The notes under the pieces: generated by a model
Seen by the model: the letters and a program-made list of their open reading frames with translations, nothing else
Told to the model about the DNA's origin: nothing
The model's database searches: none
Shown: piece by piece, positions 1,896-59,300 of the stretch
How positions within the stretch are numbered: position 1 is the first letter of the stretch
How the letters are laid out: each line of letters opens with the position of its first letter
Made by a program: the position numbers and the translations under genes
NCBI RefSeq assembly: GCF_037392515.1
Contig: NC_090283.1
Coordinates: 38,084,249 to 38,148,248, forward strand
From: Haliotis asinina
Taxonomy: Eukaryota; Mollusca; Gastropoda; Lepetellida; Haliotidae
Length of the DNA stretch: 64,000 nucleotides
Direction of reading: 5' to 3'

Positions 1896-4800
1896 TCAAA
1901 GTACACTCCAAGGATCCTTCACCCAACTTGCATCACTGAAGTATTCCATTGTAATGTAGTCCAGCACTGATGTGGGCAGAAAGTCAAGCCCATTCTCCTC
2001 TGTCATATGTCTGCCTCTTGTTGACTCATGTATACACGCCCTGGCCAGAGCTGACAATCTTCGTGGGTTGGTGATCACTGCCTGTAAACTCTCTGGAGGG
2101 AATCCTGGGATAGTGATTGTCTCAAGGTTAGGCAAGTGAGTGTGATGGACGCAGGAGTCAATGAGCATCAGCTTCACCTTGTCATTGTCAAACATACCGG
2201 GTGTAAATATTACATTCAGACAGGTCTCCCCACATTTGTTAGGAATGTCAGGTCGGGCACCATATTGCAGAAGAATTTGGACAGCATAGGTATCGACTTC
2301 TTTGTCCTTATGTATTCCATGTAAATAGTCTACATCAGTACAATGCAAGCCTTTTATTGCTAGTAAGAGCGGGGTATCCCCTGATTCTGTCTGTGCATTG
2401 ACGTCTGCTCCATGCTGACACAATAGGTACACAAGGTCACTCTTATAGCTCTCAGAGTTGGAAACTGTGGCAATATGAAGTGCAGTCAGTCCTGCTCCCA
2501 AGTTCCAGGTCTGGTGTGGTAAGTGTCTGTTTCTCTTAATATTAGATTTGCATTTGACATTGACATCTGCACCATGATGGAGGAACAGTTCCAGTGTTGG
2601 GAAGGAATCGTCTTCCCATCCTTGTCTCAGACCACTGCAGACATAGAACAATGGAGGACACGGATCACCATCAGATGCTTTGTTAATGCTGTAACCCTGG
2701 GAAACCAGGTCCTTCAACAAAGAGTCTGGTGAATGAAGAAATGGGATGTACTGAACTGGACTCTGAAGGGTGATGTGATGACCTGACTTGATGAGTTTGG
2801 CCAGAGTACGGCAGCAGATCTTGTGTGACAAAAGTTCATCTACCAGAGTTGTTCCTTTCCTGGATCTAGTTGGAAGGGCAACATCATTCTTGTGGAAGAA
2901 GTCAAGAATATCACACCTATGGATCTGGCATCCACCTATCAGTTTGTTGACGGCCAAGTCCCCAATTGTGCCACCTACAATAGAAATCTTGAATCTTGTA
3001 AACATGTTAAGAGATGGTTATGAGAGTGTTAAAGAGAATCATACAAATACGTGTTCTTCCCCATTCCCCTTTCATCCCTTAGACTGAACGAAAGTAATGA
3101 CCCTTGACTAATGCTGGTCCTGAACAGAAAGGTCAAAAACAGTGTATCAGAAGTGCAGAGTCCTTGTGATACATATCTTGAGTTACAACAATGTAAGAAA
3201 TAAGCTCATGTAACAGATAATTAAATTGACATGATATTTTGCTGTTTTCCTCTCAGCTTTATTTGATTCTTTGTCATGTGGGAATGTTTGCTCAGTTTAG
3301 AGATTAATGGTTGGCAGTGCTGGCCACGATATCGTGTATATAATGGTAACCAATGTCTTCAATTTTTGAGAACACACTCACCATTAAACAATGCATCTTG
3401 ATCCCCAATGCTCTTTGACAAAGTCACATTGAAGTCAAAGCCAGAGTCATGCAAGATCCTCACTATGTCAAGAAATCCTCTTTCAACCGCCACCTCCAGC
3501 AGTGAGCAGCCTCGGTTGTCTGTTTTTGGTTTGAAAATAACATCACATATCATTCCAGCAAGTTGTCATCTAAAATGACATGGTTTACTTCTTCATACCC
3601 ACCTCCTTCAAGTGCTGAACATCCACCACACACTCACCTCCTTCATGTGCTGAACATCAACCACTCTCTCACCTCCTTCCTGTGCTGAACATCAACCACT
3701 CTCACCTCCTTCATGTACTGAACATCAACCACACACTCACCTCCTTCATGTGCTGAACATCAACCACTCTCACCTCCTTCCTGTACTGAACATGAACCAC
3801 TCTCTCACCTCCTTCCTGTGCTGAACATCAACCACTCTCTCACCTCCTTCATGTACTGAACATCAACCACACACTCACCTCCTTCATGTGCTGAACATCA
3901 ACCACTCTCACCTCCTTCCTGTACTGAACATCAACCATGCTCTCACCTCCTTCCTGTACTGAACATCCACCACACTCTCACCTCCTTCCTGTACTGAACA
4001 TCCACAACACACTCTCACCTCCTTCCTGTACTGAACATCCACCACACTCTCACCTCCTTCCTGTACTGAACATCCACAACACACTCTCACCTCCTTCCTG
4101 TACTGAACATCCACAACACACTCTCACCTCCTTCCTGTACTGAACATCCACCACACACTCACCTCCTTCCTGTACTGAACATTCATCACACACTCACCTC
4201 CTTCCTGTACTGAACATCAACCACACACCCACCTCCTTCCTGTGCTGAACATCAACAACACACTCACCTCCTTCATGTGCTGAACATCAACCATGCTCTC
4301 ACCTCCTTCCTGTACTGAACATCCACCACACACTCACCTCCTTCCTGTACTGAACATCCACCACACACTCACCTCCTTCCTGTACTGAACATCCATCACA
4401 CACTCACCTCCTTCCTGTACTGAACATCCATCACACACTCACCTCCTTCATGTGCTGAACATGCACAACACACTCACCTCCTTCATGTACTGAACATCAA
4501 CCACACACCCACCTCCTTCCTGTGCTGAACATCAACAACACACTCACCTCCTTCATGTGCTGAACATCAACCATGCTCTCACCTCCTTCCTGTACTGAAC
4601 ATCCACCACACACTCACCTCCTTCCTGTACTGAACATCCACCACACACTCACCTCCTTCCTGTACTGAACATCCATCACACACTCACCTCCTTCCTGTAC
4701 TGAACATCCATCACACACTCACCTCCTTCATGTGCTGAACATGCACAACACACTCACCTCCTTCATGTGCTGAACATCAACCATGCTCTCACCTCCTTCC

Positions 4801-7800
4801 TGTACTGAACATCCACAACACTCTCTCACCTCCTTCATGTGCTGAACATCAACCATGCTCTCACCTCCTTCCTGTACTGAACATCCACCACACACTCACC
4901 TCCTTCATGTACTGAACATCCACCATGCTCTCACCTCCTTCCTGTACTGAACATCCACCACACACTCACCTCCTTCCTGTACTGAACATCCACCATGCTC
5001 TCACCTCCTTCCTGTACTGAACATCCACCACACACTCACCTCCTTCCTGTACTGAACATCCACCATGCTCTCACCTCCTTCCTGTACTGAACATCCACCA
5101 CACACTCACCTCCTTCCTGTACTGAACATCCACCACACACTCACCTCCTTCCTGTACTGAACATCCACCACACACTCACCTCCTTCATGTACTGAACATC
5201 CACCACATACCCACCTCCTTCATGTACTGAACATCCACCATGCTCTCACCTCCTTCCTGTACTGAACATCCACCACTCTCTCACCTCCTTTATGTGCTGA
5301 ACATCAACCATGCTCTCACCTCCTTCCTGTACTGAACATCCACAACACACTCTCACCTCCTTCCTGTACTGAACATCCACCACACACTCACCTCCTTCCT
5401 GTACTGAACATCCACCACACTCTTGCCTCTTTCCGGTCCTGAACATTCACCACACACTCACCTCCTTCATGTGCTGAACATCAACCACTCTCTCACCTTC
5501 TTCCTGTACTGAACATCCACCACACTCTTGCCTCTTTCCGGTCCTGAATATTCACCACACACTCACCTCCTTCATGTGCTGAACATGCACAACACACTCT
5601 CACCTCCTTCCTGTACTGAACATCCACAACACACTCTCACCTCCTTCCTGTACTGAACATCCACCACTCTCTCACCTTCTTCCTGTACTGAACATCCACC
5701 ACACTCTTGCCTCTTTCCGGTCCTGAATATTCACCACACACTCACCTCCTTCATGTGCTGAACATGCACAACACACTCTCACCTCTTTCCTGTACTGAAC
5801 ATCCACAACACACTCTCACCTCCTTCCTGTACTGAACATCCACCACTCTCTCACCTTCTTCCTGTACTGAACATCCACAACACACTCACCGCTTTCCAGT
5901 CCTGAACATCCACCACACTCTTGCCTCTTTCAGGTCCTGAACATTCACCACACAATCACCTCCTTCATGTACTGAACATCCATCACACACTCACCTCTTT
6001 TCAGTCCTGAACGTCAACCACACTCTTGCCTCTTTCCGGTCCTGAATATTCACCACACACTCACCTCCTTCATGTGCTGAACATCAACCATGCTCTCACC
6101 TCCTTCATGTACTGAACATCCCTCACACACTCACCTCCATCCTGTACTGAACATCAACCACGCTCTCACCTTCTTCATGTACTGAACATCCACCACCCAC
6201 TCACCTCCTTCATGTACTGAACATCCACCACTCTCACCTCCTTCATGTACTGAACATCCACCACACACTCACCTCCTTCCTGTACTGAACATCCACCACT
6301 CTCACCTCCTTCCTGTACTGAACATCCACCACACTCTCACCTCCTTCCTGTACTGAACATCCACCACTCTCACCTCCTTCCTGTACTGAACATCCACCAC
6401 ACACTCACCTCCATGTACTGAACATCCATCACACTTTCACCTCCTTCATGTACTGAACATCCATCACACACTCACCTCCTTCCTGTACTGACCATATATC
6501 ACACACTCTCACCTCTTTCATGTACTGAACATCCACCACATTCTCACCTCCTGCCTGTACTGAATATCAACTACACTCAAACCTTCTTCCTGTACTGAAC
6601 ATTCACCACACACTCACCTCCTTCCTGTACTGAACATCCACCACACACTCACCTACTTTCTGTACTGAACATTCACAACACACTCACCTTCTTCCTGTAC
6701 TGAACATCCACCACACACTCACCGCTTTCCAGTCCTGAACATCCACAACACACTCTCACCTCCTTCCTGTACTGAACATCCACCACACACTCACCTCCTT
6801 CCTGTACTGAACATCCACCACACTCTTGCCTCTTTCCGGTCCTGAACATTCACCACACACTCACCTCCTTCATGTGCTGAACATCAACCACTCTCTCACC
6901 TTCTTCCTGTACTGAACATCCACCACACTCTTGCCTCTTTCCGGTCCTGAATATTCACCACACACTCACCTCCTTCATGTGCTGAACATGCACAACACAC
7001 TCTCACCTCCTTCCTGTACTGAACATCCACAACACACTCTCACCTCCTTCCTGTACTGAACATCCACCACTCTCTCACCTTCTTCCTGTACTGAACATCC
7101 ACCACACTCTTGCCTCTTTCCGGTCCTGAATATTCACCACACACTCACCTCCTTCATGTGCTGAACATGCACAACACACTCTCACCTCCTTCCTGTACTG
7201 AACATCCACAACACACTCTCACCTCCTTCCTGTACTGAACATCCACCACTCTCTCACCTTCTTCCTCTACTGAACATCCACAACACACTCACCGCTTTCC
7301 AGTCCTGAACATCCACCACACTCTTGCCTCTTTCAGGTCCTGAACATTCACCACACAATCACCTCCTTCATGTACTGAACATCCATCACACACTCACCTC
7401 TTTTCAGTCCTGAACGTCAACCACACTCTTGCCTCTTTCCGGTCCTGAATATTCACCACACACTCACCTCCTTCATGTGCTGAACATCAACCATGCTCTC
7501 ACCTCCTTCATGTACTGAACATCCCTCACACACTCACCTCCATCCTGTACTGAACATCAACCACGCTCTCACCTTCTTCATGTACTGAACATCCACCACC
7601 CACTCACCTCCTTCATGTACTGAACATGCACCACTCTCACCTCCTTCATGTACTGAACATCCACCACACACTCACCTCCTTCCTGTACTGAACATCCACC
7701 ACTCTCACCTCCTTCCTGTACTGAACATCCACCACACTCTCACCTCCTTCCTGTACTGAACATCCACCACTCTCACCTCCTTCCTGTACTGAACATCCAC

Positions 7801-9793
7801 CACACACTCACCTCCATGTACTGAACATCCATCACACTTTCACCTCCTTCATGTACTGAACATCCATCACACACTCACCTCCTTCCTGTACTGACCATAT
7901 ATCACACACTCTCACCTCTTTCATGTACTGAACATCCACCACATTCTCACCTCCTGCCTGTACTGAATATCAACTACACTCAAACCTTCTTCCTGTACTG
8001 AACATTCACCACACACTCACCTCCTTCCTGTACTGAACATCCACCACACACTCACCTACTTTCTGTACTGAACATTCACCACACACTCACCTTCTTCCTG
8101 TACTGAACATCCACCACACACTCACCGCTTTCCAGTCCTGAACATCCACCACACACTCACCTCTTTCCAGTCCTGAACGTCAACCACACTCTTGCCTCTT
8201 TCCGGTCCTGAATATTCACCACACACTCACCTCCTTCATGTACTGAACATCCACCACACACTCACCTCCTTCATGTACTGAACATCCCTCACACACTCAC
8301 CTCCATCCTGTACTGAACATCCACCACTCTCACCTCCTTCCTGTACTGAACATCCACTACACACTCACCTCCATGTACTGAACATCCATCACACTTTCAC
8401 CTCCTTCATGTACTGAACATCCATCACACACTCACCTCCTTCCTGTACTGACCATATATCACACACTCTCACCTCTTTCATGTACTGAACATCCACCACA
8501 TTCTCACCTCCTGCCTGTACTGAATATCAACTACACTCAAACCTTCTTCCTGTACTGAACATTCACCACACACTCACCTCCTTCCTGTACTGAACATCCA
8601 CCACACACTCACCTCCTTCCTGTACTGAACATTCACCACACACTCACCTCCTTCCTGTACTGAACATCCATCACACACTCACCTCCTTCCTGTACTGAAC
8701 ATCCACCACACACTCACCTCCTTCCTGTACTGAACATTCACCACACACTCACCTCCTTCCTGTACTGAACATCCATCACACACTCACCTCCTTCCTGTAC
8801 TGAACATTCACCACACACTCACCTCCTTCCTGTACTGAACATCCACCACACACTCACCTCCTTCCTGTACTGAACATCCATCACACACTCACCTCCTTCC
8901 TGTAATGAACATCCACCACACACTCACCTCCTTCATGTACTGAACATCCACCACACACTCACCTCCTTCATGTACTGAACATCCACCACTCTCACATCCT
9001 TCCTGTACTGAACATCCACCACACACTCACCTCCTTCATGTACTGAACATCCACCACTCTCACCTCCTTCCTGTACTGAACATCCACCACACACTCACCT
9101 CCATGTACTGAACATCCATCACACTTTCACCTCCTTCATGTACTGAACATCCATCACACACTCACCTCCTTCCTGTACTGACCATATATCACACACTCTC
9201 ACCTCTTTCATGTACTGAACATCCACCACATTCTCACCTCCTGCCTGTACTGAATATCAACTACACTCAAACCTTCTTCCTGTACTGAACATTCACCACA
9301 CACTCACCTCCTTCCTGTACTGAACATCAACCACACACTCACCTCCTTCCTGTACTGAACATCCATCACACACTCACCTCCTTCCTGTAATGAACATCCA
9401 CCACACACTCACCTCCTTCATGTACTGAACATCCACCACACACTCACCTCCTTCCTGTACTGAACATCCACCATACTCTCACCTCCTTCCTGTACTGAAC
9501 ATCCACCACTCTCTCACCTGCTTCCTGTAATGAACATCCATCACACTCTCACCTTCTTCCTGAAGTGAACATCCCGCAGATATGAGGAGGTTGAGAACAC
9601 ATCCTGCATTTGACTGACATGCCAGGACAGTGGCTGACTGGCCTTCACTGTCCCTCCATGATACAACATCCAGACCTTCCTCAATGACTTCCTGCACTCG
9701 AACATGGTCATCCTTGTTGACTGCATCCATGAAGCTACTGAAGGGTGGGCTGCTCGACTCACTGCTGTCTTCTGCTGTAGACTCACATGACAT
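1896..9793 (-). CDS. Ankyrin repeat protein with SOCS-box-like C-terminus (ASB-like)
   Basis: Three coding exons join in frame: 9793-9553, 3519-3382 and 2974-1896 (TGA), giving 485 residues. Both introns are phase 1. The junctions complete ankyrin sequence: exon 1 ends in AGCSLQEE and exon 2 continues DNRGCSLLEVAVERGFLDIV. Ankyrin repeats cover roughly residues 20-400, with typical HHGADVN and QHGADVN ends. Residues about 429-470 (NPRRLSALARACI through FLPTSVLDYI) look like a SOCS box, the Elongin B/C-binding module of ASB proteins. The inferred role is therefore substrate adaptor of a cullin-5 ubiquitin ligase in the cytosol; the substrate is unknown. The start ATG is not certain, because the frame stays open upstream and an ACACAG acceptor could mark a 5' UTR intron. 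Intron 1 is nearly all minisatellite. If the SOCS call is wrong it is still an ankyrin protein. Confidence 0.8.
3597..9575 (-). repeat. 6-kb minisatellite carrying 5' splice sites
   Basis: A tandem array of a unit of about 35 bp fills intron 1 of the ankyrin/SOCS gene, roughly 165 copies by length. On the sense (minus) strand each unit reads approximately TGTTCAGTACAGGAAGGAG then GTGAGTGTGTGGTGGA. The last 20 or so bases of exon 1 and its donor (GAAGAAG/GTGAGAG at 9553/9552) are themselves one diverged unit, so the array grew from the exon-intron junction. Nearly every unit keeps GAG/GTGAGT or GAG/GTGAGA, a near-consensus donor. Variant units form higher-order blocks: motifs at 5512, 5695, 6015 and 6530 recur 1404 bp later. 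The plus strand is very poor in G. Confidence 0.95.
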
Positions 9794-13180: not shown

Positions 13181-13241
13181 GATGCTTGAGGGTTATAGTT
13201 CCATAACTTCTTTCTTTCTCGTTGATCTTATTATTTGTACA

Positions 13242-14316: not shown

Positions 14317-14367
14317 TGGTTGTTGTTGTTGTTGTTGTTATCGTTGTTGTTGTTGTTGTTGTTGTTT
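14317..14367 (+). repeat. GTT microsatellite
   Basis: An imperfect (GTT)n run interrupted once by ATC. It lies upstream of RHBDD1 and I see no other function. Confidence 0.9.
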
Positions 14368-15526: not shown

Positions 15527-18500
15527 ATGTATAACCGCAATCGTCGGGGTGGACTTGGAGTCCTGCTGCTAGCTGGACAGATCATGAATGTTGGGGTTCA
15601 CAGAATCCCCCCTGTCACTCTCGCCCTCATAGCTGCACAGACTGCCATATTCCTCAACTTTGTTCCTCAGTACTTTCCTTCGGCTACAGCAGTGTGCATG
15701 AGCACGTACTTGGTGTATTATCACAAGCAGTGGAAAAGGTTGATTCTGGGGACATTTTTCCATGCTGATGACATGCACCTGTATTTCAATATGTCCTCCC
15801 TGCTGATGAAGGGGTTGACGCTGGAGAAACGGTTTGGTAGTGTCTACTTCGCCTACCTGGTGGCAGTGTTTACAGGGTTAACGAGTCTCACCTATGTAGG
15901 ATTAAATATGTTTCTGGAGAATGCCATGGAGGACCACACCTATTCTACCTCATGTGCGGTTGGATTCTCAGGTAATAAAGTATCAATAAGACAATTCATG
16001 CTCTCACCACCGATGACTGAACATTACTGGAGAGTAGAGTGCACAATATTTTTGGAAGGACCTGTAAACATGTGTTGATTTTATTACAGCTCTTGTGGTA
16101 AAACTAAAAGCATCTTGAAGAGTTTAGTTGTATTCCCAGGGCCCATTAAACTTCTAAGTAATAATCATGTGATTAGTCCACTGTGTACAGTGTGCTGTGT
16201 AGTTGGTACTTGTGTTGCAGGTGTTCTGTTTGCCCTGAAGGTGCTGACTACCCACTACACCCCACCTGGTCTCCACTATGCCCTGGGCTTCATCCCTGTG
16301 CCCTCCCGCTTCATCTACTGGGCAGAGCTGGTGCTCATCCAGATGGTCACACCTAATGCCTCCTTCACTGGTAATACAGCTACATTCATGCTTTATGGGA
16401 TAAAGGGGAGGAGAACCTAGCCAGAACAGATCACTGTAGCAATGGCAGTCGTCAAAGTAATAGAGTCTTTTGTCAGACAGAATTGTAGTCCTGAACTTGA
16501 TGCAAAGAACCTGATACTCAAATAAAAGCATTAGAAAGACATTTCATTACAAGGCAATAACCATTCTCTTTATCTCAGGGGCGGTGGGGTCGTCTAGTGG
16601 TTAAAGCGTTCGCTTGTCATGCCGAAGACCCAGGTTCGATTTCCCACATGGGTACAATGTGTGAGGCCCATTTTCTGTTGTCCCCCACTGTGATATCGCT
16701 GGAATATTGCTAAAAGCGGAGTAAAACCAAACTCACTCACTCACTTTCGATATCTCCAGTGTGCCCTGAGTTGATGCATCTGTGGCTTGGCCAGATTTTA
16801 TTAATTTTTATTACCTATGATGTCACATAACTTGGGCAGGTAACCTGCTGTTACAACTGAGCTTGCCAGTGTAACAAATTATCAGGTTGGACACTTTAAA
16901 AAACATATATGCAAGAACTCTCTTTCAGAGCTCATCTGCTCATCATTGCAAACTTTAATCAGTTAGATAATTTAATTGGCACGTTCAACTTCCCAGCATT
17001 GGGACAAAAAGCTAGCCAAGGGAGGTAATAAAATCATCAGGCTGAACCGTAGCTGCATTCACTAATTCAGGGTATAGTAGAGATTTATCAGAACATAAAC
17101 CCTGGAGATATACCTGGGAGATATCAAGGATGTATTGGGAACTAGATCATCCCATAAATAATCTGGTCACTTTTGGCAGGTTGTGTTTGGGTTTCTGACC
17201 ATGCATGCAAGCAGAATTTTAATTGGATTTCTGAGATGAAAGAAAACTATACAAAAACATAACAGTGATTCAGTTAAAGGTGTTTGATGGTCATTTTTTG
17301 TAGCCTGCAGTCTTCATTCTGTACAATTGTTACCCAGGTGTTCATTCTGTACAAGTGTTACCCTGAAGTGTTCATTATGTACAAGTGTCACCCTGAAGTG
17401 TTCATTATGTACAACTGTCACCCTGAAGTGTTCATTCTGTACAAGTGTCACCCTGAAGTGTTCATTATGTACAAGTGTCACCCTGAAGTGTTCATTATGT
17501 ACAAATGTCACCCTGAAGTGTTCATTATGTACAAGTGTTACTCTGAAGTGTTCATTATGTATAAGTGTACCAAACAGAGACCTCATTCATTTACATGTAG
17601 ACAGATAGGTATTTTTTTGTCAGTCGTTAACTCAGGAAAAGTTGACAGCTCTTCAGACGTCCTTCATAGAATGATCTTACAGTCAGTAAGTACAGATGTT
17701 TTTGTACATGTTGGTTATGTACAGTGTATGCAATTTCTGTTTATTTCTTCCACAGGTCAACTTGCAGGTATCATGGTGGGGCTGCAGTAATTACATATGT
17801 TTTTGTACATGTTGGTTATGTACAGTGTCTGCAATTTCTGTTCATTTCTTCCACAGGTCATCTTGCAGGTATCGTGGTGGGGCTGCTGTACATCAAAGGA
17901 CCCCTCAAGACAATCATGGATGGCTTTGTTCCCCCCGGTAGGAGGTCTTTGACTTCACTGCACCAAGGACTGACTGTCAGTTGTCGCACTCCACAGTAAA
18001 CATTTACAGCTAATACTGCTTTCTGTGATGCCTCAAGTCTGTGCTCAGAGGAAAAAGTGCCTGCCTGTATCACCTTGTTTCCAAACTTCCCTGTGGTTTT
18101 GTATCCTGATCCTCTATTTCAAGATTGTGTATTTATTATGATATGAATATGGCTTCTTATTTCAAATGTTTGTGAGTAGCCTCAACCTGTCACTGCAGGT
18201 CCATCCTATACATACACTGCCAGGAGCAGCGGGTATCGATCAGCAGGATACACAACAGGAAGGTCATGGTCGTCTCCACAGCGACAGTATGGTCAGCCCA
18301 GTTACCCTGACCACTCTGCGTACACAGGGGGGATGAGTGAAGAGGAACAATATGCACGAGCTCGAGAGGAGAGCTTGCGACCACAGCACACAACTGGTCA
18401 GTCCAACAGTAAGGCATCCAACTTTGTATCTTGTCTGAAGCACAAACTGATTCAAGCACAAAATACATGATAAACTAGGCACAAGCTCATACTGTGTTGT

Positions 18501-20412: not shown

Positions 20413-23400
20413 TCACTTTGCACCTGTTGAAAGCAGCAAATTCACCTGGAAACACAATAACCATCCATGATGTATAAAATACATACTGATGATGAACGTG
20501 ATTAGCATAATAACGTACAAACTGTTTTTGATTTGCAAAAAAAAAAGTCAGGACCCTTGGAGCATGATAAAGTGTGATCTGTACATCCAATTCAGTTGTG
20601 CTTTACTACATTGTCCTCGTCTGTGCTGTACTAGGACAATGATCTGTATGTCAAACTCGCCTGTGCTGCATGAGGACAATGATCTGTATGTCCAGCTCAC
20701 CTGTTGTACACTGGGACGGGCAATGATCTGTTTGTCCAACTCACCTGTTCTGCACTGGGACAGGCAATGATCTGTGTGTCCAACTCACCTGTTCTGCACT
20801 GGGACAGGCAATGATCTGTATGTCCTCCTCAGTATAGTGGTCTGTGAGGAGCTGGGTGAGCTGCTGGAAGTTCTGTTGTACGTTCACCTGAAATATGGAC
20901 AATGAACTTTGTGTCCAAATAACTGCCAGCTACAAATTCTTCATCTTGGTAGTGCACCTATCAAACCAATCCTGAAACGCTTGACAATATTTCGATCAAG
21001 TGAATTGATACAAAAGCTGCCTATATTTCTTCTGAATCTCAAAAGAGAACACCATAATTTTCATTTGAAAGGGATTGAAAGCAAGGAAGTAATAATAGTA
21101 TCTTTGTTGGGCTGCATAACATTAAACAACAGTGCGTTACAGCAAGCTGACATACTTGACCAGCTAGTGTTACCTTAATGGGCCTAAACAAGATGGACTC
21201 CGTGTCCTTGTTGGCCAGATACAGAGACATGCTGCGATGGACAGAGGGTAGTTTGGTCTTCACATTCTTGTACGTCTCTGCCACAACATCATGGACCTTT
21301 TCTGGGGTAGCAAAAGGCTGCTGCCTCAGTTTCACATTCTGTCCGACCTGTTCTTGCTTCATCTGCACAATAACCTCGGCCTGCAACACAGCAAGTTGTA
21401 ATGAAGTATCTGCAGGAGACTGCAGAACACTGCAAGCTGCAATTGATGGTTTTAAACACCTACAGGACATTGCGGACCACTGCAAACTGTAATTGATGGC
21501 TTCAAACACCTACAGGACATTGCAGAATACTACAAGCTGTAATTGATGGCTTCAAACAAATACAGGACATTGCGGACAGCTGCAAGCTGTGATTGACGGC
21601 TTCAAACACCTGCAGGACATTGCCGAACACTGCAAGCTGCAATTGATGTCTTCAAACACCTACAGAACTTTGCAGAACACTGCAAGCTGTGATTGACAGT
21701 TTCAAACACCTACAGCACTTTGCAGAAGACTGCAATCTGTGATTGATGGCTTCAGACAAATACAGGACATTGCAGAAGACTGCAAGCTGAGACTGATGGC
21801 TTGAAACACCCACACGACATTGCAGAAGACTGCAAGCTGTGATTGACAGCTTCAAACACCCACAGGACATATAGGAATAGTGGTAAAATGACACCAAAAC
21901 TCTGTACTTAGTTAAAAAGCCAGTCCGATTTGTGTTCTGTGGTGGCGGGTGTTGTGGTATATGTTACTGAAACTGTTTCTGTTTATGATGTGCAAAATTA
22001 CAGGAAACACAGATATCACAGACTAATATTAGTGCAGTTATCCTGATTACTGAAGGGTCATCATCACAAAATCATAGTAATCGCGACAAGATAAAACATT
22101 GACAGATGGTCTCACCCTAGACAGGAATGTCTGAAGAGGTCCTGTGAATATCTCCGAGACATGATGGATGAAATCTTCGCATGTTTTCTTTAGATGCTGG
22201 TCCACATCACGCTTTGAGTCCACAAAGTACTCCGTAACCTGGGGTGTACCCTAAACCAATAGAAAAGCATCATGAAAATTTGTAATTAATTCACCAAACT
22301 CATCTACAGAAGAACATTCACTGAGAAAAAAAGAATTCAGAGCTGTTGTAGCTGTTTCTGTTGTTGATGAGTGTTTGCTGACAATATCTTTTGGGTGTAT
22401 AAAACAGCTTATCACATGATGCTAACTGCTACTTTCACTAAGACTAAAAATACTGTCTCCACTGAAGAACTATGTGACGTGTGTGTTACACATGACTCTG
22501 ATAAGTCAATGTTTTCTGAATCTGACAAATTCCTATTCCACTCCCATTAAATTCAACATACACTCTCTGTATGAGAACATCCTACATATGCCGTATTAGG
22601 GACATGTCATGGAACTTGGCAGACTTCTGTGAATATGATCTGAAACCTTGATTCTTCTGTAAACAAGGTGTAACACCACTGCCACACAACTTATTACCAG
22701 TGTTTGCAGCCGATGGTAAGGTGATAGGGTCACACTCTTCACAACAGACAGATAAATCTTCCTCCTTGTCATTGTACACAAATCTACTACTGACAGGAAG
22801 GAACCCTTTCCTGTCCCCACAATTTACAATTTTCTCACTTCACAGAAATTATGTCTTTGATTCATTCTTAAGATTGTGCTGAGTGCAACTGTATCAGTGA
22901 TTGTGGGTTCAATATTTTAGCTTCCATGAGCATAAGCATCAACTGCTCTGCATACATTAAGTAATAGCATAAAACACAGTGAGGTAATTCACAGTGTCAG
23001 TCGTTGATCACTGCTTAAAGAAATATGTTTTCACTGTTTAAAGAAACATGTTTTCACTCTTTGTAAGACCTATATATCATGCTTATGTACTAAGGAAAGT
23101 CCCCTTGAAGCTGAAGAACTCACACTGAGAACAAATTGTAGCAAGGCGTTGTTACTGTTGAGAGCAAACAGTTGTCCTTTCTTCTGTATGAGGCTGTAGG
23201 CTGCATCTGTAACACACGCACCAGTTATACAGAGGGGTACTACAACTGGTTCTAGAACCACAACTGCTTGTACTTGAACCACTTGTTCTGAGATCTGCAT
23301 CAGTCTCTTTGAAGGGCAAGTTACATTTGAATTTGTAGGATAATTGCATGATTCAATATTTTAAGTCTGTGACTTGAGCCACTAGTCAGAAGAGTCAAGT

Positions 23401-29400: not shown

Positions 29401-32400
29401 GATTTCCAATCAAGACCAGTTGCGACCCTCCTTCAAATATCTTCATTACAGGGCCATAATCACTCATCACTCTCAATTCTCATGATAAAAGGGTGAGCGA
29501 AACTCAGTGCCTTTGTGGAACCATTAGTAGTTGTGCAACAACAAGTGGCTCAAAATGGTGAATGCCAGCAACATCCTCTGTGGCGATGTCCTGTAGGTAG
29601 TGAATATCAAACTCTGTATTCGATTTCCAAAAGCAGTCCTCCATTATAGTTGATAATGAGCAGTTTCCGTGTAGAGCGAGTGTTGAGACCAGTGGTCTCA
29701 CTTTGCGTAGATTGGAGGCTCGAGTCTTGGTGCTTTGTAGGCCCTCAGTATAACGACTCTCATCCATACTGAGATAGTGTGGTGGGATAACACTTCAGAA
29801 GGTTTTTCAGTAGATATTGGGTTGAGTAGGCACTTGAAATGTTGTCTCCTTGTCTCAGTACCTTGGCGATAAATTTTCAATGCTCTGACTGGGCATAGTG
29901 ATAAATCTTGCGTATCATGTGGTCCAAGGACTGTAGATAATGCTGAGATGTGTCATTCTCTGTACTGCTGTCCAGTCAGTTGATTTTGTGTGATAAAATC
30001 CCATCTTGATGTACAATCTCACAATGATTGGAGTAGAATCCTGTGCGATTGAAGTCCAGAGCATGTATTTCTGACAATATAGCTAGGGTGATTAGAAACA
30101 CTGTTTTCTGTATCAATAATTCAAGCAATGTCCAGTCTAGTGGTTCATAGACATCACCCATGAGGTGTTATAGTATGACATTTAAGTCCCAAGCTTGTGC
30201 CTTGGCTGGAGCCAGTATGTTGAGACTGTGGAACCTTTCAGTCCTCTGGTATGTTGTAGATGACATAAGTAGCCTGCTATTGGAGGATGTGAGGCCTTCA
30301 TGGCAGTAAAGCCTTTCTTTCTGGCGTATGTTTCAAACCTCATCCATTTATCATCGTATAATGTGTGGGTAGATATACATAGAGCTAGGGTGATTGCCTT
30401 TGCTGCTCTTTAGAATATCATTGATGTTTCAAGCAGACTTTCATACGATCCATATGAATGATGTAGGATTGCAGTGAGCTTGTTTGGTGTGCAGACGGAC
30501 GAGTATGTTCTTGCACTCTGGTAGTTGTAGTATTGGTTGTCCTAGTTATTGATGAGTACTGGGAACCAATCCAATCTCTCACTGTCCAGTAAACCGCGAC
30601 CAAATATCTGTTGTATCAGCATCATCGGTTTTATATTCCCGATGACCTTTGGTCGAAGTACTGGAGGGGGGAAACACATAGGTATTCAGTCCTTCCCACG
30701 AGATGCTGAGAGCGTCTGTTGTCCATGCCAACGGATCCGGTACTGGAGATATGAATGTTGGTATCTGCTTGCTGAACCTACTGGCAAACAGGATCCAAAT
30801 GTCTGATTGATAAGTTGAAACGACTCTTGATGTAGCTTCCATTCTGTGAAGGCGTGAAGGGCGTGAAGTTGCGTCCACCTCACCTGGGATGTGACAAGCC
30901 TTTATGTGGAGGTTCAAGTTGAGGTTCAAGGCATCAGCAATGTCGAAGAGTTGAAAGGTCAGCTGTAGTAGTGTGTGAGAACATGTTGATCCGTGCTTGT
31001 TTATGTAGAATGCTACTGTGGAGCTGTCTGTTTCAACAATGCTGTCGACCAATGTGGTACTGCATTGACTACTGCTTTCATCATCTACATCTAATCTCCA
31101 GGTGGTTAATATGATGAATGCATTCGTTGCTCATCCAGATTCCTGCTGCCACCTTGTTTAAGTGAGCATCCCAACCTTGTAGTGACACATCTACGTAGAG
31201 ATGGTTGTTGTAGGCCAGCTGTAGTAAATTGGTCTCTAAGAAGACATTCGATCGGTGAGTTCACCACAGTAGACATGGTCTCAAGTTGTCTGGCAGAGTA
31301 ATCCGATCTAACGTGTTGAGATGCTGAATCAGGAATCGTTGTAATGGGCATAATTGTAGCCGTCCTCATCTGGTCAAAGCCTAGTGGTAATGGAGAGAGT
31401 AGAGCTTGTTCTATCTTGGTTTGAAGTTTGACCCACCGATCTTCTGGGACGACGATGTGGTTCAACGGAGAGATGAATTGAATCCTGAGGAATTGAAGAT
31501 CTAGCAGTGGCCCAAATTCCAATTTCAGTAGATTCACAAGCAATCTGAGTTGAGTTAGCCACCTGATGGTGAAGTCTAACTGCAGTCTGAGTTGACACGT
31601 CCTCTGATGCGCTTGAATGGTAAAAGGCACGGCAAAGTCCCTGCCGATGTAGACAGGTGACTATTGGCTTGTGACCCTAGCAAATAGCCATGGGGCTCAA
31701 GATATTCAGACAGCAGAACCATCCACTGGTAGTGCTGACCGGTGAATAGGAAAAGCAGATATTTCCTGGAGTCCAGATGTATCAGAAAGTGCATGTGGGC
31801 ATCTTGTAGATCGATGCTGGCTGGATAATCCACGGGAATGAGATGCCGCAGTTGTGGTAAATGGATCATTCTGAACCGATCTGGTTTCAGTAGATAATCC
31901 CTGTCGAACTCCTTCATGTTGTATATATGTCAAAAAAGTTTCTTTGGAGTTTTTCTTGGGTACCAGAAAAATTTTAATAATTGGGGAGTAGAATCCTGGT
32001 GTTAGTTGATAAGGTGTAGTTTTCTCCAAAAGAGATTATATGGTATTGGCTAGTTTGTCTCATTGATCCCTGGCGTACATGAAGAGTGCTGGGTCTCTTG
32101 TGAGTGGTAGTGTTGCCTGTTGTTGCATCTTGTAGCTGTGTTGTAGGATGCTCATATGTAACTGTCGATGAGGAGTCCCCAATCCTTCCAGTAGTACTGT
32201 AGACGTCCACCCACTCATGAAGGTTGTACGGGAGGGGTGGTGGGGGAAGGCTCCAGTCGTTCCAAACCTGATATTCAGCACTTTCCTCCTTTAGTTCTCC
32301 TGGCAGGGTATCCTATTCCATGAGCGCCTGTTTCCTCTGGCTGAGTGACAAAAAGAGCCCTTGACGTCACAAGGATTGTACTTCTTGTCTCTCGCTCTCT

Positions 32401-35400: not shown

Positions 35401-38400
35401 CTTAAAACTAAACTCACTCAGTTCCTGGAATGGTTCCAGATAAGACTTCTTGACACTGATAATCCACGCCAGTTGCTCTAGGGGACAGGTCTTAAAGTCC
35501 AACTATCTGCACATCAACTGAGGGTCAAGGTGGTTCATGAGACAGTTGTCTATGTAAGAGTTGAAGTCGATGCCCCTAAAATGTAAGCTACGGGTAATCA
35601 GCAAAGTAATCAAAGTAAAAAGCCATGGGGCCATTGAAATGCCAATCAGGAGCACCTTCCACAGGTAGTGGGACCCGTTGAACATGAACCTCAGATACTT
35701 CCCGTGATGATGGTAAATGGGCACATGTAGGTAGGCATCCTGAAGGTCAAGGCTGGTCAGACGCTACGAATAGACTCCCTTCAGGGAATGTACTGGCACT
35801 TCCCTCTGCCCTTAGCAGATGACTTGCCACGAAAGGCAGAACCCAAAGCTTTAAATGTAGACAGGGACACCGTGGTGTTAGTAAGTTCCACATGTTCTCT
35901 ATATATCTCCGGGATCTTGTCATGAAACAAGAAGCGAGACATTAAAGGGGTTCTCATCACCTTCCTCTTGAATTCTTCCTGCCACGTACAAGGGTCTAGG
36001 AAACCAGAGCACCGCACATTGGTTGTCACGTCCAAAGCCACTTGCAGGTGTGCCAACAAGTCATGAAGAACTTTCTCCTGGCATTGGAATTAAGTTGTCA
36101 AATGGTCAATCCTCGACGCATTATCTTCAGTTAAATCCCCCAGACGCCAAAGCTAAAATAGTTTTCAGCATCTGCTAAGTTCCCTATCAATCACTTCTTC
36201 GAATCCTGCACACGGAGTGGAGATCACATCACTTCCATTCCTGCACAATCGTCAATACATGAGGTAGCCATTCAAGAATGGTGAATCAACGACTGTCTGA
36301 TCTCTTTTAAGCAGAGCTTGAGGTAATACAAATAAAACTTATGGTAAGGTAAGTTACAAATTCTGTTACTTCCCCAAAGAAAACTCCTGCCTGTATGAGG
36401 TTACACACCGTGGTTCATATAAGTGTTCTGACTCACGATTGTTCAGCACATGTTCCTCCATCATCTCCATCTTGAGGATGCTACACAGCTCAGACAGAGT
36501 CTCCAGATGGTTCACGTGAATAATGAGGGGCCGCAGCACATCATACAGGTTGTTACACAACCGCTCCAACATCTCACTGTCAATACAGTTAATACATCAC
36601 ATGTCTGCCAACATCTCACTGTCAATACAGTCAATACATCACAGCCGCTCCAACATCCCCCTGTCAATAAAACATCACACACGTGCCAATGTCTCACTGT
36701 CAATGAGGTCAATACATCACATGTGTACCAACATCGCACTGTTTGTGCAGTCAGTACATCACAGATGTGCCAACATCAAACTGTCAGTACCATCAATACA
36801 TAACAGATGTGCTACCATGTCACTGTCAGTAGTCAATTCATCAATTGTGTGCCAACATCTCATTGTCAGTATAGTCAATATATCAGAGATGTGCCAATAT
36901 CTCATAGTCAATACATATCATGTCATATGTCTACTAACTCATGAGCATTGGGAATGTTTCAAATGAATATTTAAAATATAATCAATTCAGCATTAAATAA
37001 GCTAAATGTGTTCATCCAAATGTTATGTTCTGGTAATACTGCATGTTAATTAAACAGAGATATTCTTTTTCATTTGAGGATGACAAACAACCAGTCATCA
37101 TCAGGTAGACAAAACACACATGTCAACTCACTCTAACAAGGGCGTTGGTTTGGAGAAGAAGTTGAAAAACAGCTGGTATTCATCCTCACAAACATGCACC
37201 ATGAAGGCACAGCCACTCCTCATCTGCACAACACAAATACAATGTCTTTAGCAGGGAGTTCATCACATGTCCAACACTAGATATCTTCAAGTGCAGGTTA
37301 CAGTTCAGCCCACAGCTACCAGATCTCATCTCTTAAAGTCATGCTGAGAACACAAATCTGTTCAGTCTAAGTAAACGTATCCTCAGTACTTTTCCTTACA
37401 CTCCACTACTGAGTCTAAGAAAACCCTATGGGAGGTAGCGTCAGGTAACCTTTGAGATTGACCAATCAGAACACAGCTTACCAAATCGTGAAAGTGCACA
37501 TTCGCACATACTTTTTGAACTTCTTTATAGTAGCCGTTGTCTGGTTGGTTAAATCCATTTAACCGTCTCGCGTTTGATTGGATGGTCATTGGTCGCTCAA
37601 AGGTTACCTGACTCGACCTTCTTCTAGGTTTTGTTAGACTCAGTGGTGGAGTGTAACGAAATACACTGAGACTAAGTATACTTAGACTGCAAATCTGTTG
37701 GTCTTGCTTTTGCTCAATAAAGTAATCACAAGGTTGACAAAAATAAATCCTTTGATTAGACTGATAATGAATACATTTCAACTTTTTGTGATACAAAATC
37801 AATGGTGATAATGGAAATCATACCAGTGCACAGTGATCCCGCACATGTTTGCTAGCCAGATCTGTGATAGTGGAGGCAATGCTGGGTCCAAGAAGCATTT
37901 CTCTCTGTATGAAGTAGCAGAGGTGGCAGTCAGCCAGGACATCAGCGTATCTACAAACAGCATCAGTGCAGGGAATGGTGTTCAACACATTGTCATCAAT
38001 GTGCCACCTTTATCACAGCAACAGGAAAGTAATCGAGTGTTTAAGATCAGCTCACACTTACCAGTATGTCATCTATATTTCTTGAAGTTTAAAAATGTGA
38101 TGTATGAAAAGCACTTACTCTGGTGACTTATCCACTCTTATCTCTAGCTGTTCTGTGAGGGATTTGATACGAGGAGCATTGGCTCGGAATTTGCCATAAA
38201 ACAAAGTAAATGCATTGTCAGCCATGTTTGGAACATCCTGCTGAAAATAAAGAGTTAATTTTATCATCACGCTGCATGTGTTGTTAGTTTATTTAAATGA
38301 ATATAGTATCAAATTCAAACTCTGTGAGTAACATCTAATTTTCATCCCACTTCATACTAAAACTGCTAACTGGCTTCTCTAGCATGTACCCATAGACTGG

Positions 38401-49574: not shown

Positions 49575-49760
49575 TTCAGATCGGGTTTCAGCAACCCACG
49601 GATGCTTGTCGCGGGGGACTAACGGGACTGATTGGTCAGGCTCCCCGACATCATTAGATAAACGCACGCCTCCGTAGCCCCGTTTGCGGAAATCGGTGAT
49701 GTGAATCACTGCACTGTCTGATCAAAGTCATTCGGAACAAATATTGGCAGTGTAAATGTA
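49575..49760 (+). mobile_element. Decayed SINE
   Basis: TTTCAGCAACCCACGGATGC, GGGGACTAACGGGACTGATT and a GTGAATCACTGCACTGTCTG block match the middle of the 13242 SINE. The CACTCAC tail is missing. Confidence 0.7.
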
Positions 49761-52090: not shown

Positions 52091-52915
52091 TGTAATTTAA
52101 GAATATTTTTATGATTTCTATATAAACAGGGCATGTAAACATGGTATTTCTACAGAATGTAAACATGATTCGATCTGTTCTAATTGTACTTACAGGCGCG
52201 ATAGAGGATGGGCTCCATGCTATGTTTGTATGCAAGTTACGAATACACAGAATCAAGTGTTACATTCCTTTTGTATATTGCTATTAAATTGTTCGTGTGG
52301 GATATGCTGCATCTGCTAACATCAACAGGTATCTAAAGCTTCCAACTACAATCACCAAATCAAGACTTTGAACATTCGACAAATAAGGATGTATTGCCAA
52401 CCAGGACACCTGGCTTCCTCCTGTCATGTGTAAGTAAATGGATTCTCTTGTCTACTACACTCACATGTCAACACATGGCTCAATGAAGAATAATGGGTCA
52501 CAAATATTTTTCCGATAATCAAAAGGGCTGGCTGAAAAGTCCTGTATCCTTCCTACTGATCATTTCCTTTACAGGGTTACAAATGGATAGCAACATGGAA
52601 TCAACTGTTCCATGTATGACAAATATACCCGGTAACAAAAGGCATGCGTTTGTCAGTTTTATTGTCCACTGAAAATATTTATGAACAGCTTTGACTGACA
52701 TTGACATCTGCATTTGGATCGCTAAATATAAAACTAGTCATTTACAGATGTTTACCATATTTAGAAACTATATTTACAAATAAAACAGTACATGTAATCT
52801 ATTCGATGGAAAGTAATTATGTCTTTAGAGTAAATAATGTAACCACAATTATTATTACAGTTCAAACTGGAGCCATAACGTCTGTCCTCGATTTGAGATA
52901 GCTGCATGCATGACT

Positions 52916-53125
52916 GACCATTGGAACATATGTTGATAGAGCAAGTCTCTTTAGGAATCATGAACACATGTTGATAGAACAAGTCTCTTTAGGAATCATG
53001 AACACGTGTTGATAGAGCAAGTCTCTTTAGGAATCATGAACACGTGTTGATAGAACAAGACTCTTTAGGAATCATGAACACATGTTGATAGAACACGTTT
53101 CTTTAGGAATCATGAACACATGAAT
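52916..53125 (+). repeat. 37-bp minisatellite
   Basis: About five and a half units of AACACATGTTGATAGAACAA then GTCTCTTTAGGAATCATG. Variants alternate between GAGCAAG and GAACAAG. It is intergenic. Confidence 0.95.
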
Positions 53126-53904
53126 GGAAACCTGTTTATCATGCAGTCTGAACACATACTTTGATAAACTATCTCGCGAATTATTCCTAATTGTTTCATT
53201 CAGTATAGTTGTTGTCTCTTGTAGCAGATGAGAATAATCAGTAGCCATGAGTTCTAACCCAGCAGCTCTGCCAGTGCACGTCCACCCCACTCTCAAGGCG
53301 TTGAAATCTTCCAAACTGTACAATTATTGCACACTTCCCGGTCATTGATGGGGCCTCTTGCTCCAGTAACCTATTCACGGAAACAAGACTTACGCATTTT
53401 ACACTTTCGCATTAATTCGTAGGGGGCGTATACTATTTTATGAAGTCATTGTCTTCCCCGCGTCAGTGGTCTATATGTTTGAATGTTTTACGTGTTTTCA
53501 AGGTCACTGTGACTTATCGATGACCATTATTCCCTTGTTTGACATATGAGACGGAGGGGATACCTGAAGCATGAAATCGCATAGAAACTTTGTAGTAGAA
53601 GCCCGGGAAGGAGTGTGACTCATCTTTTGTACAAGGATCGTTGTCATGAATGACCACAGTCGTGACGCATGTCAATGGCCATAGTGTTTACATCTGGTTC
53701 ACCTAGTAACAGCTATGTGCACGCAATAACCCAATGAACCATAACATTCAACTAGTATTCACTGAAGCACATGTATGACACAATCTTAATTCAAAGAATG
53801 CCATTGGTCGACCAGAGTTACTGGGTCTCAAATCCTTGGTTTCTCTGTTAGCTAAAGTCATGGATTGGTAATGTATTGTTATCAAATGAACTAGTGCCAA
53901 GAAC

Positions 53905-54965
53905 TAGCAGGTTTCGCAAAAGGCTAGTGACAAGGAGTTGTAGTATTTGCAAATGAGCTAGTGCCAAGGAGTTGTAGCATTAGTAAATGAGCTAGTGTCA
54001 AGGAGTTGTTATTATAGTAAATGAGCTAGTGCCAAGGAGTTGTAGCATTTATTATTATAGTAAATGAGCTAGTGCCAAGGGGTTGTAGCATTAGTAAATG
54101 AGCTAGTGTCAAGGAGTTGTTATTATAGTAAATGAGCTAGTGCCAAGGAGTTGTAGCATTTATTATTATAGTAAATGAGCTAGTGCCAAGGAGTTGTAGC
54201 ATTTATTATTATAGTAAATGAGCTAGTGCCAAGGAGTTGTAGCATTTATCATTATAGTAAATGAGCTAGTGCCAAGGAGTTGTAGCATTTATCATTATAG
54301 TAAATGAGCTAGTGCCAAGGAGTTGTAGCATTTATTATTATAGTAAATGAGCTAGTGCCAAGGAGTTGTAGCATTTATTATTATAGTAAATGAGCTAGTG
54401 CCAAGGAGTTGTAGCATTTATCATTATAGTAAATGAGCTAGTGCCAAGGAGTTGTAGCATTTATCATTATAGTAAATGAGCTAGTGCCAAGGAGTTGTAG
54501 CATTTATTATTATAGTAAATGAGCTAGTGCCAAGGAGTTGTAGCATTAGTAAATGAGCTAGTGCCAAGGAGTTGTAGCATTTATTATTATAGTAAATGAA
54601 CTAGTGCCAAGGAGTTGTAGCATTTATCATTATAGTAAATGAGCTAGTGCCAAGGAGTTGTAGTATTTGCAAATGATCTAGTGCCAAGGGATTGTAGTAT
54701 TAGTAAATGAGCTAGTGCCAAGGAGTTGTAGCATTTATTATTATAGTAAATGAGCTAGTGCCAAGGAGTTGTAGCATTAGTAAATGAGCTAGTGCCAAGG
54801 AGTTGTAGCATTTATTATTATAGTAAATGAGCTAGTGCCAAGGGGTTGTAGTATTAGTAAATGAGCTAGTGCCAAGGAGTTGTAGTATTAGCAAATGAGT
54901 TAGTGCCAAGGAGTTGTGGTATTAGTAAATGAACTAGTGCTAAGGAGTTGTAGTTATTAGCAAAT
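53905..54965 (+). repeat. 1-kb minisatellite with two unit lengths
   Basis: About 28 units share AAATGAGCTAGTGCCAAGGA then GTTGTAG. Short units (about 27 bp) are followed directly by the next TATTAGT or CATTAGT; long units (about 43 bp) add CATTTATTATTATAGT or CATTTATCATTATAGT. Long units dominate the centre and short, more diverged units lie at both ends. No gene borders it. Confidence 0.93.
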
Positions 54966-56270
54966 AAGCTTAATTCTTGGACTTGCATTATTAGCAAATG
55001 AACTACCGCCATGGATTAGTACGATCAATAAGCAATGAGCTTATGTCATTGACTAGTAGGATTAAGTATGCAATCCTAACGACTGAGTGAAAATGTTTGT
55101 GAGAAAGTGTGTGTGTATTTAGTCGTGGGAGATTGTGAAGTTTAGGAAGTGGCTCCATGGAGTAGTGATGAGACAGATCCTAGTGAATCATGTTTGGTGA
55201 CAGCTGTCCACACACGATGAGGATGTGATACAACTGTCTGACGACCTGCCCCTTCTAACCTTCCTATATATGGTTGAAACAGTATGTTCATAACTGGTCC
55301 CGTTATGCTCACAGTCACAGAATCACATGGTTCTCACCCTGATAGATTTTCTGAATCACCGTGAAGTGCAGGTTTCTTTGGAACTGTCATTATGTGAATG
55401 AGGAACGTGCATGCTGACGTGTAGAACGCTCCAGATAAGACTCACAGATATGATAACCAAAATATATGGCCAACAGCACATACAACATACACTATCCGGT
55501 TGTTTCGTCATGCTTTGGGAGGTGTGGGGCGGGGTGTTATATGAAACAGCAGTAGGTCATAACTCCCCTCAATGTATATATCATTTTTCCAGGGCATAGT
55601 ATATATAGGTAAAGGTATATATACTTACCCCCAATTAAACCCAAACCTCCCCATGTTATCTTATTCACATAAAACGCTAACAGATCTAATACAGAGCTCA
55701 TCTTTTAAAATTACCTGTAATGCGTTTCAAGAGAGAGGAGCCGATCCGGGACTTAGCCTCGTGTGGATTCTAAGCACGCGTAACTCCTACACTATATCCC
55801 AATCGTGTATAGACTTTAAGTGTCAAAACATGGAACAAGGGACATGCTTAACGAGGTAGAGAGTTAGTTGTGAAGCGGCCAAAGTGCTGCAAGAGAGGTC
55901 ATATCGCTCACTTCAGTTAATTATATCACACAACTGTGAATTTTTACAGCTAACATGACACATGCATTGTGCATCAGAACACCAGAGCATCTTTAAATAT
56001 AACTGTGGATCACGGGCTGACCACCAGGACAATCAGACATTGTAGGTGATTGTTTCTGACTGGGGTCATCTGAAATGAATGGACGCACATGTTGACCTTT
56101 CAGTTGTGTACTGAGCCGTAGCCCACCAGGCCACTTCATTCATTGATAGAATTAACTTGAGTGACACGAACTGCGACTGTACATGTTCCGGGTCTGTTCT
56201 GGCCAAGATTTCCGGTGTTCTGACTAACAGCCATCACGGCACCGTTGCTCCCATTTCCGTGCTCGGGTAA

Positions 56271-56277
56271 TATAAAA
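56271..56277 (+). promoter_or_regulatory. TATA box of the astacin gene
   Basis: TATAAAA lies 119 bases before the first coding ATG, in GGGTAATATAAAACCTG. A start of transcription near 56300 would fit. The inference rests on position and motif only. Confidence 0.5.
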
Positions 56278-56395
56278 CCTGACTGAACTAGACGTGCCAG
56301 TGAATACTGGACTCCGACAACTGACGACTCTAACCATAGCTAATTATTCATTGTATAGTTTATATTACGTGTAATATTTATTCAGTTATTATCTG

Positions 56396-59300
56396 ATGAC
56401 CATGACGGATTCTGCCATGATCAGAGTTGTTGGTTTTTTGGTAAGTTGATCTATCTCTAGATCTCTCCATATATCTATCTAGCTTTTGATATTTATTCAT
56501 GCATGTGAAAAATATAAGTTATATAGTACCTGTCTAAGAAAGATGCATTAAACTACTGTGTGTACCTACGTATCTACCCATCCAAACTCACTACCTACCT
56601 ACCTACCTACCTACCTACCTACCTACCTACCTACCTACCTACCTACCTACCTACCTACCTACCTACCTACCTACCTACCTACCTACCTACCTACCTACCT
56701 ACCTACCTACCTACCTACCTACCTACCTACCTACCTACCTACCTACCTACCTTTCTTTTCTGGTATGTCTGGTGTTCCCTGTCGTGGCATTGATGAAGTA
56801 CTGCTAAAAGCGGCGTAAAACTTAACTCAGTCAGTTAATAAGGTTGAACTTCGTGACTTAAATTCAACCATAAGGGAATCTTGATGCTATACACGTACTA
56901 AAGGGTTCTATTTATGGTCAGTTAAATTATGTTTTAGTTCCTTGTTTTAACGAGGAAGTCTAACACAGCCCTTTGATTGCAACCCTATATCAAATTTTGG
57001 CCAAGTATTTTCACATTTCAGAACATACGTCAAATATCACTTCTACCATCTAATCAACCAGAATCTGAGTGAGTCAGTGAGTCTAGTTTTGCGCCGCAAT
57101 GTTCTAGAAATATGACGGATAAATAAATATAACAGAAATATAACACCAGATATGGGGTTTACTCATTTTACCCATGTGGGAAATTCACCAGAATGTATCC
57201 ATGTTAGAATTATTTGAAACGTCAACCTTAGCCACACTAAGGTGGGCCGGACCAACCTTACATGGCCACTTTAACTAAGGTAACCTTAGGCAAAAGTAGA
57301 TTCGTGGCAAAGCTCAAGGAGATATCGTAATGTTAGCTCTAAGTTTGTATAGTATAACGGCATCCAGTTCTGGTATGCCCAGTAGAGATGTATCTGGAAC
57401 ATTGCTGGCACATCACAAACTGCCACGTATGTCTGTGTGTAAAATATCCACACAGCAACCGACACCATACATCTGCTGTTTCCCTATATCAAGCGGTCAT
57501 GCCGTATTTAACTGAAATACAGTTCGAAGGGAAGTTTAACCCACCTCACTCAGTGACGTTAATCTGTGATGTCACCCAATGTCCATGTGTGTTTGTCATA
57601 TGTTTGTAAGATGTTGATATGAATGTCTGCTCAGATATGGTTCCTGGCGTTGTCCGTGGCGCGACCTAACCCGAGACCTGGTGGGTTACCCAAGAGGAGG
57701 ATACCCCTTCCTGGAAGCGGGTTTAGATTACGTGAGCCACACACAAACCTGACTATGGACCAGATAATCACACAGCAACTCGGGGGCATTTCAGGTAACC
57801 CGGCCTTGTCCTCAACAATCCCCCCACCAAACTATAGTATGTAGTATGTAGTATGTAGTATGTAGTATGTAGTATGTAGTATGTGTGATTTGTCCTGACC
57901 TGCGGATGCTGAAATAATTATATCTGTTGACACTGAAAGCCCTGGTAGATATAATGCGTGTAGTTGCTGTCGTAGAGTGTATGGCCATCGTCTTCAGTAC
58001 ACTGTTGCCTGGATAAGCAGGGTCATGGAGGCAGCTCGCTAGGCCGTGGCTACTGTCATGTACCAGCAGTGCTGTGTCTATTTCAGGTGTTGGAAACAAA
58101 ATGATGGACGCTGGTGGCCTGATTCTCGCGGAATTAGACATGCGCCTTACTCCAGAGCAGTATGCGGCGTTCTACAACACAAACAGGTACACACACTTTC
58201 ACTATGTATTGCCCCAGCACAAACAGGTACACACACTTTCACTATGTATTGCCCCAGCACAAACAGGTACACACACTTTCACTATGTATTGCCCAAGCAC
58301 AAACAGGTACACACTTTCACTATGTATTGCCCAAGCACAAACAGGTACACACACTTTCACAATGTATTGCCCCAGCACACTTTCACTAAGTATGCCCCGT
58401 GCACACGAATACACTGTAATCACAAGAAAACACAACAAAAAACAAACACAAACTGATGCAACACTGTAATCTCTGAGAGTCGTGTGTACAACTGCAGTGA
58501 ATTGTGAGGAGATATATTTGAGCTCATCCAGAAGATCTCATGTAGTCGCTTTAAGTGATGTTTCCCGCAACTGTTCTCACAGCAATGGTCAAGGACCCGA
58601 TGGCTCCGGAGCACGCTTCAGGCGTAAGGCGACGTCTAACCCCGTGCTCAGGTGGTTCCATGGAGAGATTCCATACACCTTCGCGGATAATACCTTCAGT
58701 AAGTTGCACTTTTGATTTAAGTCACGTTTGTGTTTTATACTGCACATAGTATATAATATTGTACCCAGCTTGGAGCAAAATATATACTTTATTGTTATCG
58801 ATGTGAGTATTAGCTGTGAGTTGTAATCAAATTCAAGAACTAGCACTAGCTTGGGCATCTTCCAGGGTTCAGTATACATGTGAAAACTGAAAGCTGTAGC
58901 AGGCAGATGGACACAGTGAATATATGACCAAGAGGTTTTGAAAAGTGCCGGTTGTTTTCCAGATACTAAAGAGAAGGTGATGATCAAGGAAGCAATGACC
59001 GAATGGGAGAGATACACGTGTGTGAACTTCGTGGAAGCCACACATTCTCACCGCAACGTCCTGGATTTCGTTAATGGAGACTCGTGAGTAGAATGTCACC
59101 ACATCGGTTGCCATCACAGTTAATATCGCCACATTAAGCTACACCTTCAAATCAGTTGGACGCTTCTAAAGCCTATGTACTTGATGTGTACAGTCGGTCT
59201 TTCTGCTAGTTAACGTATCGGTTAATTGTCAGTTTCGGGATTTGATGTTACTTATGTGAATCCTGTGTGCCACAGGTGCAGCTCCCAGTTGGGTATGGTC

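Follow-up and report, generated by a model that had tools for sequence, protein, structure and literature searches.

Minisatellites spanning exon-intron junctions recur in unrelated genes of an abalone genome and may form or persist there preferentially

In the abalone Haliotis asinina, a stretch of 64,000 nucleotides on contig NC_090283.1 (hereafter the window), part of a 1.14-Gb genome that we sampled for further loci, carries minisatellites whose repeat units span exon-intron boundaries, and arrays of the same kind recur in kinesin genes elsewhere in this genome. We read them, with a probability of about 0.7, as minisatellites of the type called 'mirages' in amphioxus, in which tandem duplications spanning a splice junction leave silent spare copies, with preferential formation or persistence at junctions suggested for this genome. 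A preliminary description of the window had reported arrays carrying splice sites together with exon bases in all four of its genes, and this was borne out: five of the nine window arrays cover a splice junction, with 9-37 exon bases copied and at least one such array per gene.

Window minisatellites were located with Tandem Repeats Finder (TRF), retaining arrays with a period of at least 20 and a score of at least 200 and merging overlapping rows, and were compared with models of the ankyrin, RHBDD1, COG3 and astacin genes built on reading frame, phase and splice consensus (56 junctions). Checked against Pfam, the models matched ankyrin repeats, Rhomboid, COG3_N, COG3_C and Astacin; the COG3 model is short of at least one exon, and its exon numbers trail those of the preliminary description. 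Most of ankyrin intron 1 is occupied by a 35-bp array (3600-9574, minus strand, about 170 units by TRF and unit alignment, exon-1 donor edge at 9553), whose unit, written starting at the donor, is GTGAGTGTGTGGTGGATGTTCAGTACAGGAAGGAG. The end of exon 1 is itself the first array copy (9553-9574, minus strand), with 22 exon bases and then the donor at 9552, and an Ank_2 match crosses the join. In RHBDD1 the exon-3 acceptor is duplicated (17684-17890, plus strand, 101 bp x 2, edge 17857, 34 exon bases), and Rhomboid spans the join; the first copy runs to an in-frame stop and the second was taken as the exon start (17857), so that correct acceptor choice should matter here, because use of the first copy would hit the stop. 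COG3 carries two junction arrays on the minus strand, one at the donor of the next-to-last exon (20637-20825, 44 bp x 4.4, edge 20789, 37 exon bases) and one at an acceptor (36566-36915, 42 bp x 8.5, edge 36576, 11 exon bases, COG3_C spanning the join), while the astacin array lies on a donor (58178-58379, plus strand, 40 bp x 5.1, edge 58186, 9 exon bases). Pfam matches thus cross the joins of three of the five junction arrays (ankyrin, RHBDD1 and COG3 at 36576); neither a Pfam domain nor a solved relative, sought by structure searches with the COG3 end and the astacin propeptide, covers the terminal COG3 join or the astacin join, for both of which the support consists of frame, phase and splice consensus.

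To what extent chance could place arrays on junctions depends on the null that is chosen. Placed without regard to exons, 2.5 of the nine window arrays would be expected on junctions (P for five or more, 0.045), and we did not adopt this uniform placement as the main null because the arrays do not tolerate whole exons. With arrays entering exons by less than one unit, the expectation falls to 0.33 and none of 4000 trials reached five; with one founder unit per array, taken at its length before expansion, 0.44 were expected against the five of nine observed (P = 3e-5). Since the window was selected post hoc, these statistics are not proof on their own.

Recurrence was therefore judged on kinesin, SNF and myosin genes of the same genome, with exon coordinates taken from Pfam searches. 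Fifteen kinesin regions were selected by exon density, the later seven once the first eight had been seen, though while those seven were still unread; exon ends lacking a partner with which to form an intron were left out prior to counting. The regions yielded 62 resolved junctions and 15 arrays at a score of at least 100, six of which cover a motor-exon junction, where random placement of founders expects 0.85 (P = 8e-5). These six lie on the acceptors of L073 (39 bp) and L080 (positions 160-2092, 106 bp, about 18 tandem copies of the start of the P-loop exon) and on the donors of L076 (35-41 bp), L077 (105 bp), L078 (35 bp) and L081 (43 bp); the L076 array merges a row of 41 bp x 22 with the junction-covering row of 35 bp x 2.1, and in L073 most of the intron is taken up by the array. 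In L078 the end of the motor, LKYANR, is repeated at least 14 times, and the array extends past the fetched stretch; we take both the P-loop and LKYANR to be kinesin motor motifs. Because L080 and L078 repeat conserved ends of kinesin motor exons, the copying went from exon into intron. Two of these junctions, the L078 donor and the L080 acceptor, entered the list by hand because an array sat on their exons, and L080 was also favoured by region selection, its repeats having produced two hidden Markov model hits; excluding L080 leaves 5 of 12 arrays on junctions against 0.55 expected, and excluding both hand-resolved junctions leaves 4 of 15 against 0.76 (P = 0.005). A further 24-bp array in L078 (3357-3731), with about 15 donor-like GGGTGAGTATATT units, lies 120 bp past an exon and does not overlap it.

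The idea that units contain the junction itself accordingly holds for five of nine arrays in the window and 6 of 15 in the kinesin regions, donors and acceptors alike (seven donors and four acceptors among the 11 junction arrays). Less direct are arrays that end close to an exon. The sixth array that the preliminary description had placed at a COG3 exon does border it (21413-21870, minus strand, 50 bp x 9), ending 33 bp upstream of the acceptor at 21380, and a weak gapped likeness to the unit extends over that acceptor, which 2 of 500 base shuffles equalled in score. Comparable arrays in the sampled loci, read by eye and left uncounted, lie 17 bp (L071), 30 bp (L080), 37 bp (L049) and 105 bp (L030) from a junction; their likeness up to the acceptor is weak, with shuffles scoring as well in 42 of 500 cases for L049, 40 of 500 for L071 and 6 of 500 for L080.

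A scan for copies of exon ends gave a second view of the same 118 window and kinesin junctions. At a score of at least 14, a threshold fixed with the scores already known, 10 of the 118 junctions have their 24 exon-edge bases repeated in the neighbouring intron, whereas exon-internal controls do so in 2 of 118 cases, both lying in long units, and reversed controls in none of 118. Lowering the threshold to 12 gives 14 exon-end, 4 internal and 1 reversed matches of 118, and at 10 the counts are 24, 25 and 11. Intronic 24-mers recur as well, in 29 of 475 cases in the kinesin regions and 10 of 235 in the window when the ankyrin intron is set aside (57 of 283 in a window sample that includes it).

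Several results weigh against a preference for junctions. Per base, junctions at 10 of 118 (8.5%) are not significantly richer in such copies than introns at 39 of 710 (5.5%, ankyrin intron omitted; P = 0.21), and since the per-base excess is not significant, the excess concerns founders and rests on counting one founder per array. Without the hand-resolved junctions the exon-copy scan yields 8 of 116 against 2 of 118 exon-internal matches (P = 0.06). The SNF and myosin loci, from which hits containing stop codons had been dropped (30 of 60 main hits), have none of 80 exon ends under a TRF array and none of 16 arrays on a junction, a rate that differs from the 11 of 118 of window and kinesin regions combined (P = 0.003). 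Two extra small regions, L084 and L085, added one more array, which lies off known junctions, and the strict count outside the window, omitting hand-resolved junctions, is 4 of 32 against 1.18 expected (P = 0.03). As to the composition of the SNF and myosin sample, 50 of its 80 ends lie on contig C5 and 46 of those within one myosin cluster; when the kinesin ends are set against the 30 ends off C5, the difference is not significant (P = 0.17). This cluster (G000:C5:73.57-73.88 Mb) holds about 13 copies of a myosin-head gene, counted via matches to one profile segment. In the exon-copy scan of 56 SNF and myosin ends, L061 (score 18) is the one clear case, its acceptor and exon start being repeated in the intron upstream, and L016 (score 13) is a weak match.

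Of the 32 arrays retrieved in total from outside the window, 6 lie on junctions against 1.27 expected (P = 0.001), and arrays cover 11 of the 198 exon ends examined in the window, kinesin, SNF and myosin sets. The founder expectations are 0.85 for kinesin, 1.14 outside the window and 1.57 overall, the SNF and myosin share being computed from unit lengths as listed by TRF and from a total length that was rounded. Founders on junctions are thus a few to several times above random placement, which suggests, with moderate support, that such duplications form or persist there preferentially. The preliminary description had left it between a preferred origin and mere tolerance, and had called for a comparison of overlaps with a random null: in the sampled loci the kinesin excess speaks for the former, also in the strict count, whereas the per-base comparison and the SNF and myosin loci do not. 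A junction-biased origin is possible but unproven; the founder excess may stem from a bias in how such duplications form or in how they are retained, or from uneven sampling.

The anatomy of the arrays suggests how they may arise. A founder tandem duplication of about 35-106 bp would span the exon-intron boundary, so that the resulting unit would combine the end of an exon with its splice site and, in most cases, a piece of the intron. The spliceosome would presumably stay on the exon-proximal site, and the extra copies would exit with the intron; the protein would remain unaltered, and the array could lengthen or shorten by unequal exchange or slippage while drifting neutrally. In the 170 ankyrin units GT is kept in 159 and GTGAG in 134, and the donor columns are conserved at 0.908 against 0.917 for the remaining columns; the donor columns thus do not stand out, and nothing points to selection either favouring or removing the spare donors. 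AG and GT signals in the other arrays were assessed by eye. What the sequences show directly is how the units are built, that copying ran from exon to intron where the exons are conserved, that such arrays recur across unrelated genes and that the spare ankyrin donors are not conserved beyond their surroundings.

Among other explanations, pure tolerance fares best, and we give it a substantial chance, though one short of even. Here duplications would land anywhere, those inside exons would be purged and those on junctions would survive like intronic ones, with no special cause. The per-base result, the empty SNF and myosin exon ends and the unremarkable conservation of the ankyrin donor copies all fit this, as does the finding that the 11 junction arrays are as diverged, and have as many copies, as the 29 other arrays; a greater age of the junction arrays was looked for in this comparison and not seen. 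Junction units are also slightly longer (median 43 against 37, P = 0.04), as random capture predicts. Against tolerance speak the founder counts, both in the kinesin regions, strictly counted or not, and in the window.

A stronger claim, that junctions are true hotspots of which some 1 in 10-20 carries a minisatellite, strikes us as doubtful. Its proposed basis is pairing of the splice-consensus TGAG: in L078 and in the COG3 44-bp array the unit is almost wholly exon, and an exonic TGAG aligns by eye with the TGAG of the donor. In these two cases the duplications might have started from this short stretch of homology. The same two arrays would also suit intron birth after the Rogers model, by which exon-only duplications with AGGT-like sites create introns and arrays would mark the ends of young introns, and so would ankyrin intron 1 and the L073 intron, which are mostly array. 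Yet in the cases inspected by eye the unit seems to hold just one of the intron's two splice sites, and ankyrin exon 2 is unlike the array unit; we regard this origin as improbable. That selection retains spare sites for robustness or alternative splicing is very unlikely, for although these sites are largely intact, the ankyrin donor columns are conserved no better than the rest and the first RHBDD1 acceptor leads into a stop codon.

Consistent with the preliminary description, the remaining window minisatellites lie off modelled junctions, namely a 30-bp array in RHBDD1 intron 2 (17304-17568), a 38-bp array at 52924-53122 and merged TRF rows of about 43 bp at 53883-54959. The stretch adjoining the COG3 array matches only itself in the assembly, hence there is no second haplotype for a comparison of array length, and an Rfam search gave no match. 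The COG3 introns hold retroelement-like frames at 35506-35763 (minus strand) and between 29507 and 34725; one of five scanned pieces matches RVT_1 slightly under the cut-off and the other four match nothing, while window positions 30000-30200 have 40 scored matches across the genome, counting the stretch itself. Around the astacin exons, a perfect (CTAC)40 at 56591-56752 and (TAGTATG)7 at 57835-57884 lie upstream, and two ShK-like domains (62456-63190, plus strand), perhaps of the same gene, lie downstream.

If the observed rate held genome-wide, which is an extrapolation, the introns of thousands of genes would contain extra splice sites and pieces of exon ready for use, a reservoir from which alternative exons, longer introns and new introns could be drawn. 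Mirages would then no longer be a curiosity of lancelets but a trait of other animals' genomes as well, and they would offer a large natural sample both for how tandem duplications begin and for how the spliceosome chooses among near-identical sites, e.g., the 159 GT-bearing donor copies in the 6-kb ankyrin intron.

The preliminary description knew of no recurrent class of splice-site minisatellites; amphioxus mirages are such a class, and a human case exists as well. Mirages are reported in amphioxus Adh3, the globins BflGb6 and BflGb9, TnC and PGBD5 as minisatellite-like tandem copies of 5' and 3' exon-intron boundaries, many units carrying AG/GT, with unit lengths that run from 10 to 160 bp in Adh3 and both globins, and length differences between haplotypes and evidence that normal splicing is left undisturbed are reported (PMC3087553, PMC3902484). 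The abalone arrays likewise span the boundary with exon bases, affect both kinds of splice site and mostly keep GT; whereas the lancelet cases were described gene by gene, here 11 cases come from a genome sample with a rate and a null, and the haplotype and splicing evidence belongs to the lancelet, the abalone arrays being known from sequence. In human IFI6 (6-16), a minisatellite supplies several splice donors (Turri 1995, cited in PMC4526556); its repeat units sit at an exon end like those of the abalone, while the alternative donor use is reported for IFI6, a single gene. Human segmental duplications show tandem repeats at exon-intron boundaries with units of about 30 bp on average and 27 intron modifications (PMC2812944), similar in minisatellite size and position but drawn from recently duplicated primate genes that were chosen by variable repeats and linked to novel introns. 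In AGGT intron gain, as summarised in the source, tandem duplication of splice-signal sequence yields a new intron (PMC4974935); the duplication of a splice signal is shared, whereas the abalone intron seems pre-existing, with one side copied. An account of earthworm intronic minisatellites offered no junction case in the text available (PMC12783039), and a literature search, with subscription papers mostly outside it, found no genome-wide count of junction arrays. As far as that search shows, this kind of structure has already been described in individual lancelet and human genes, and what the abalone adds is its recurrence in unrelated genes of one non-lancelet genome, together with a first rate (11/198).

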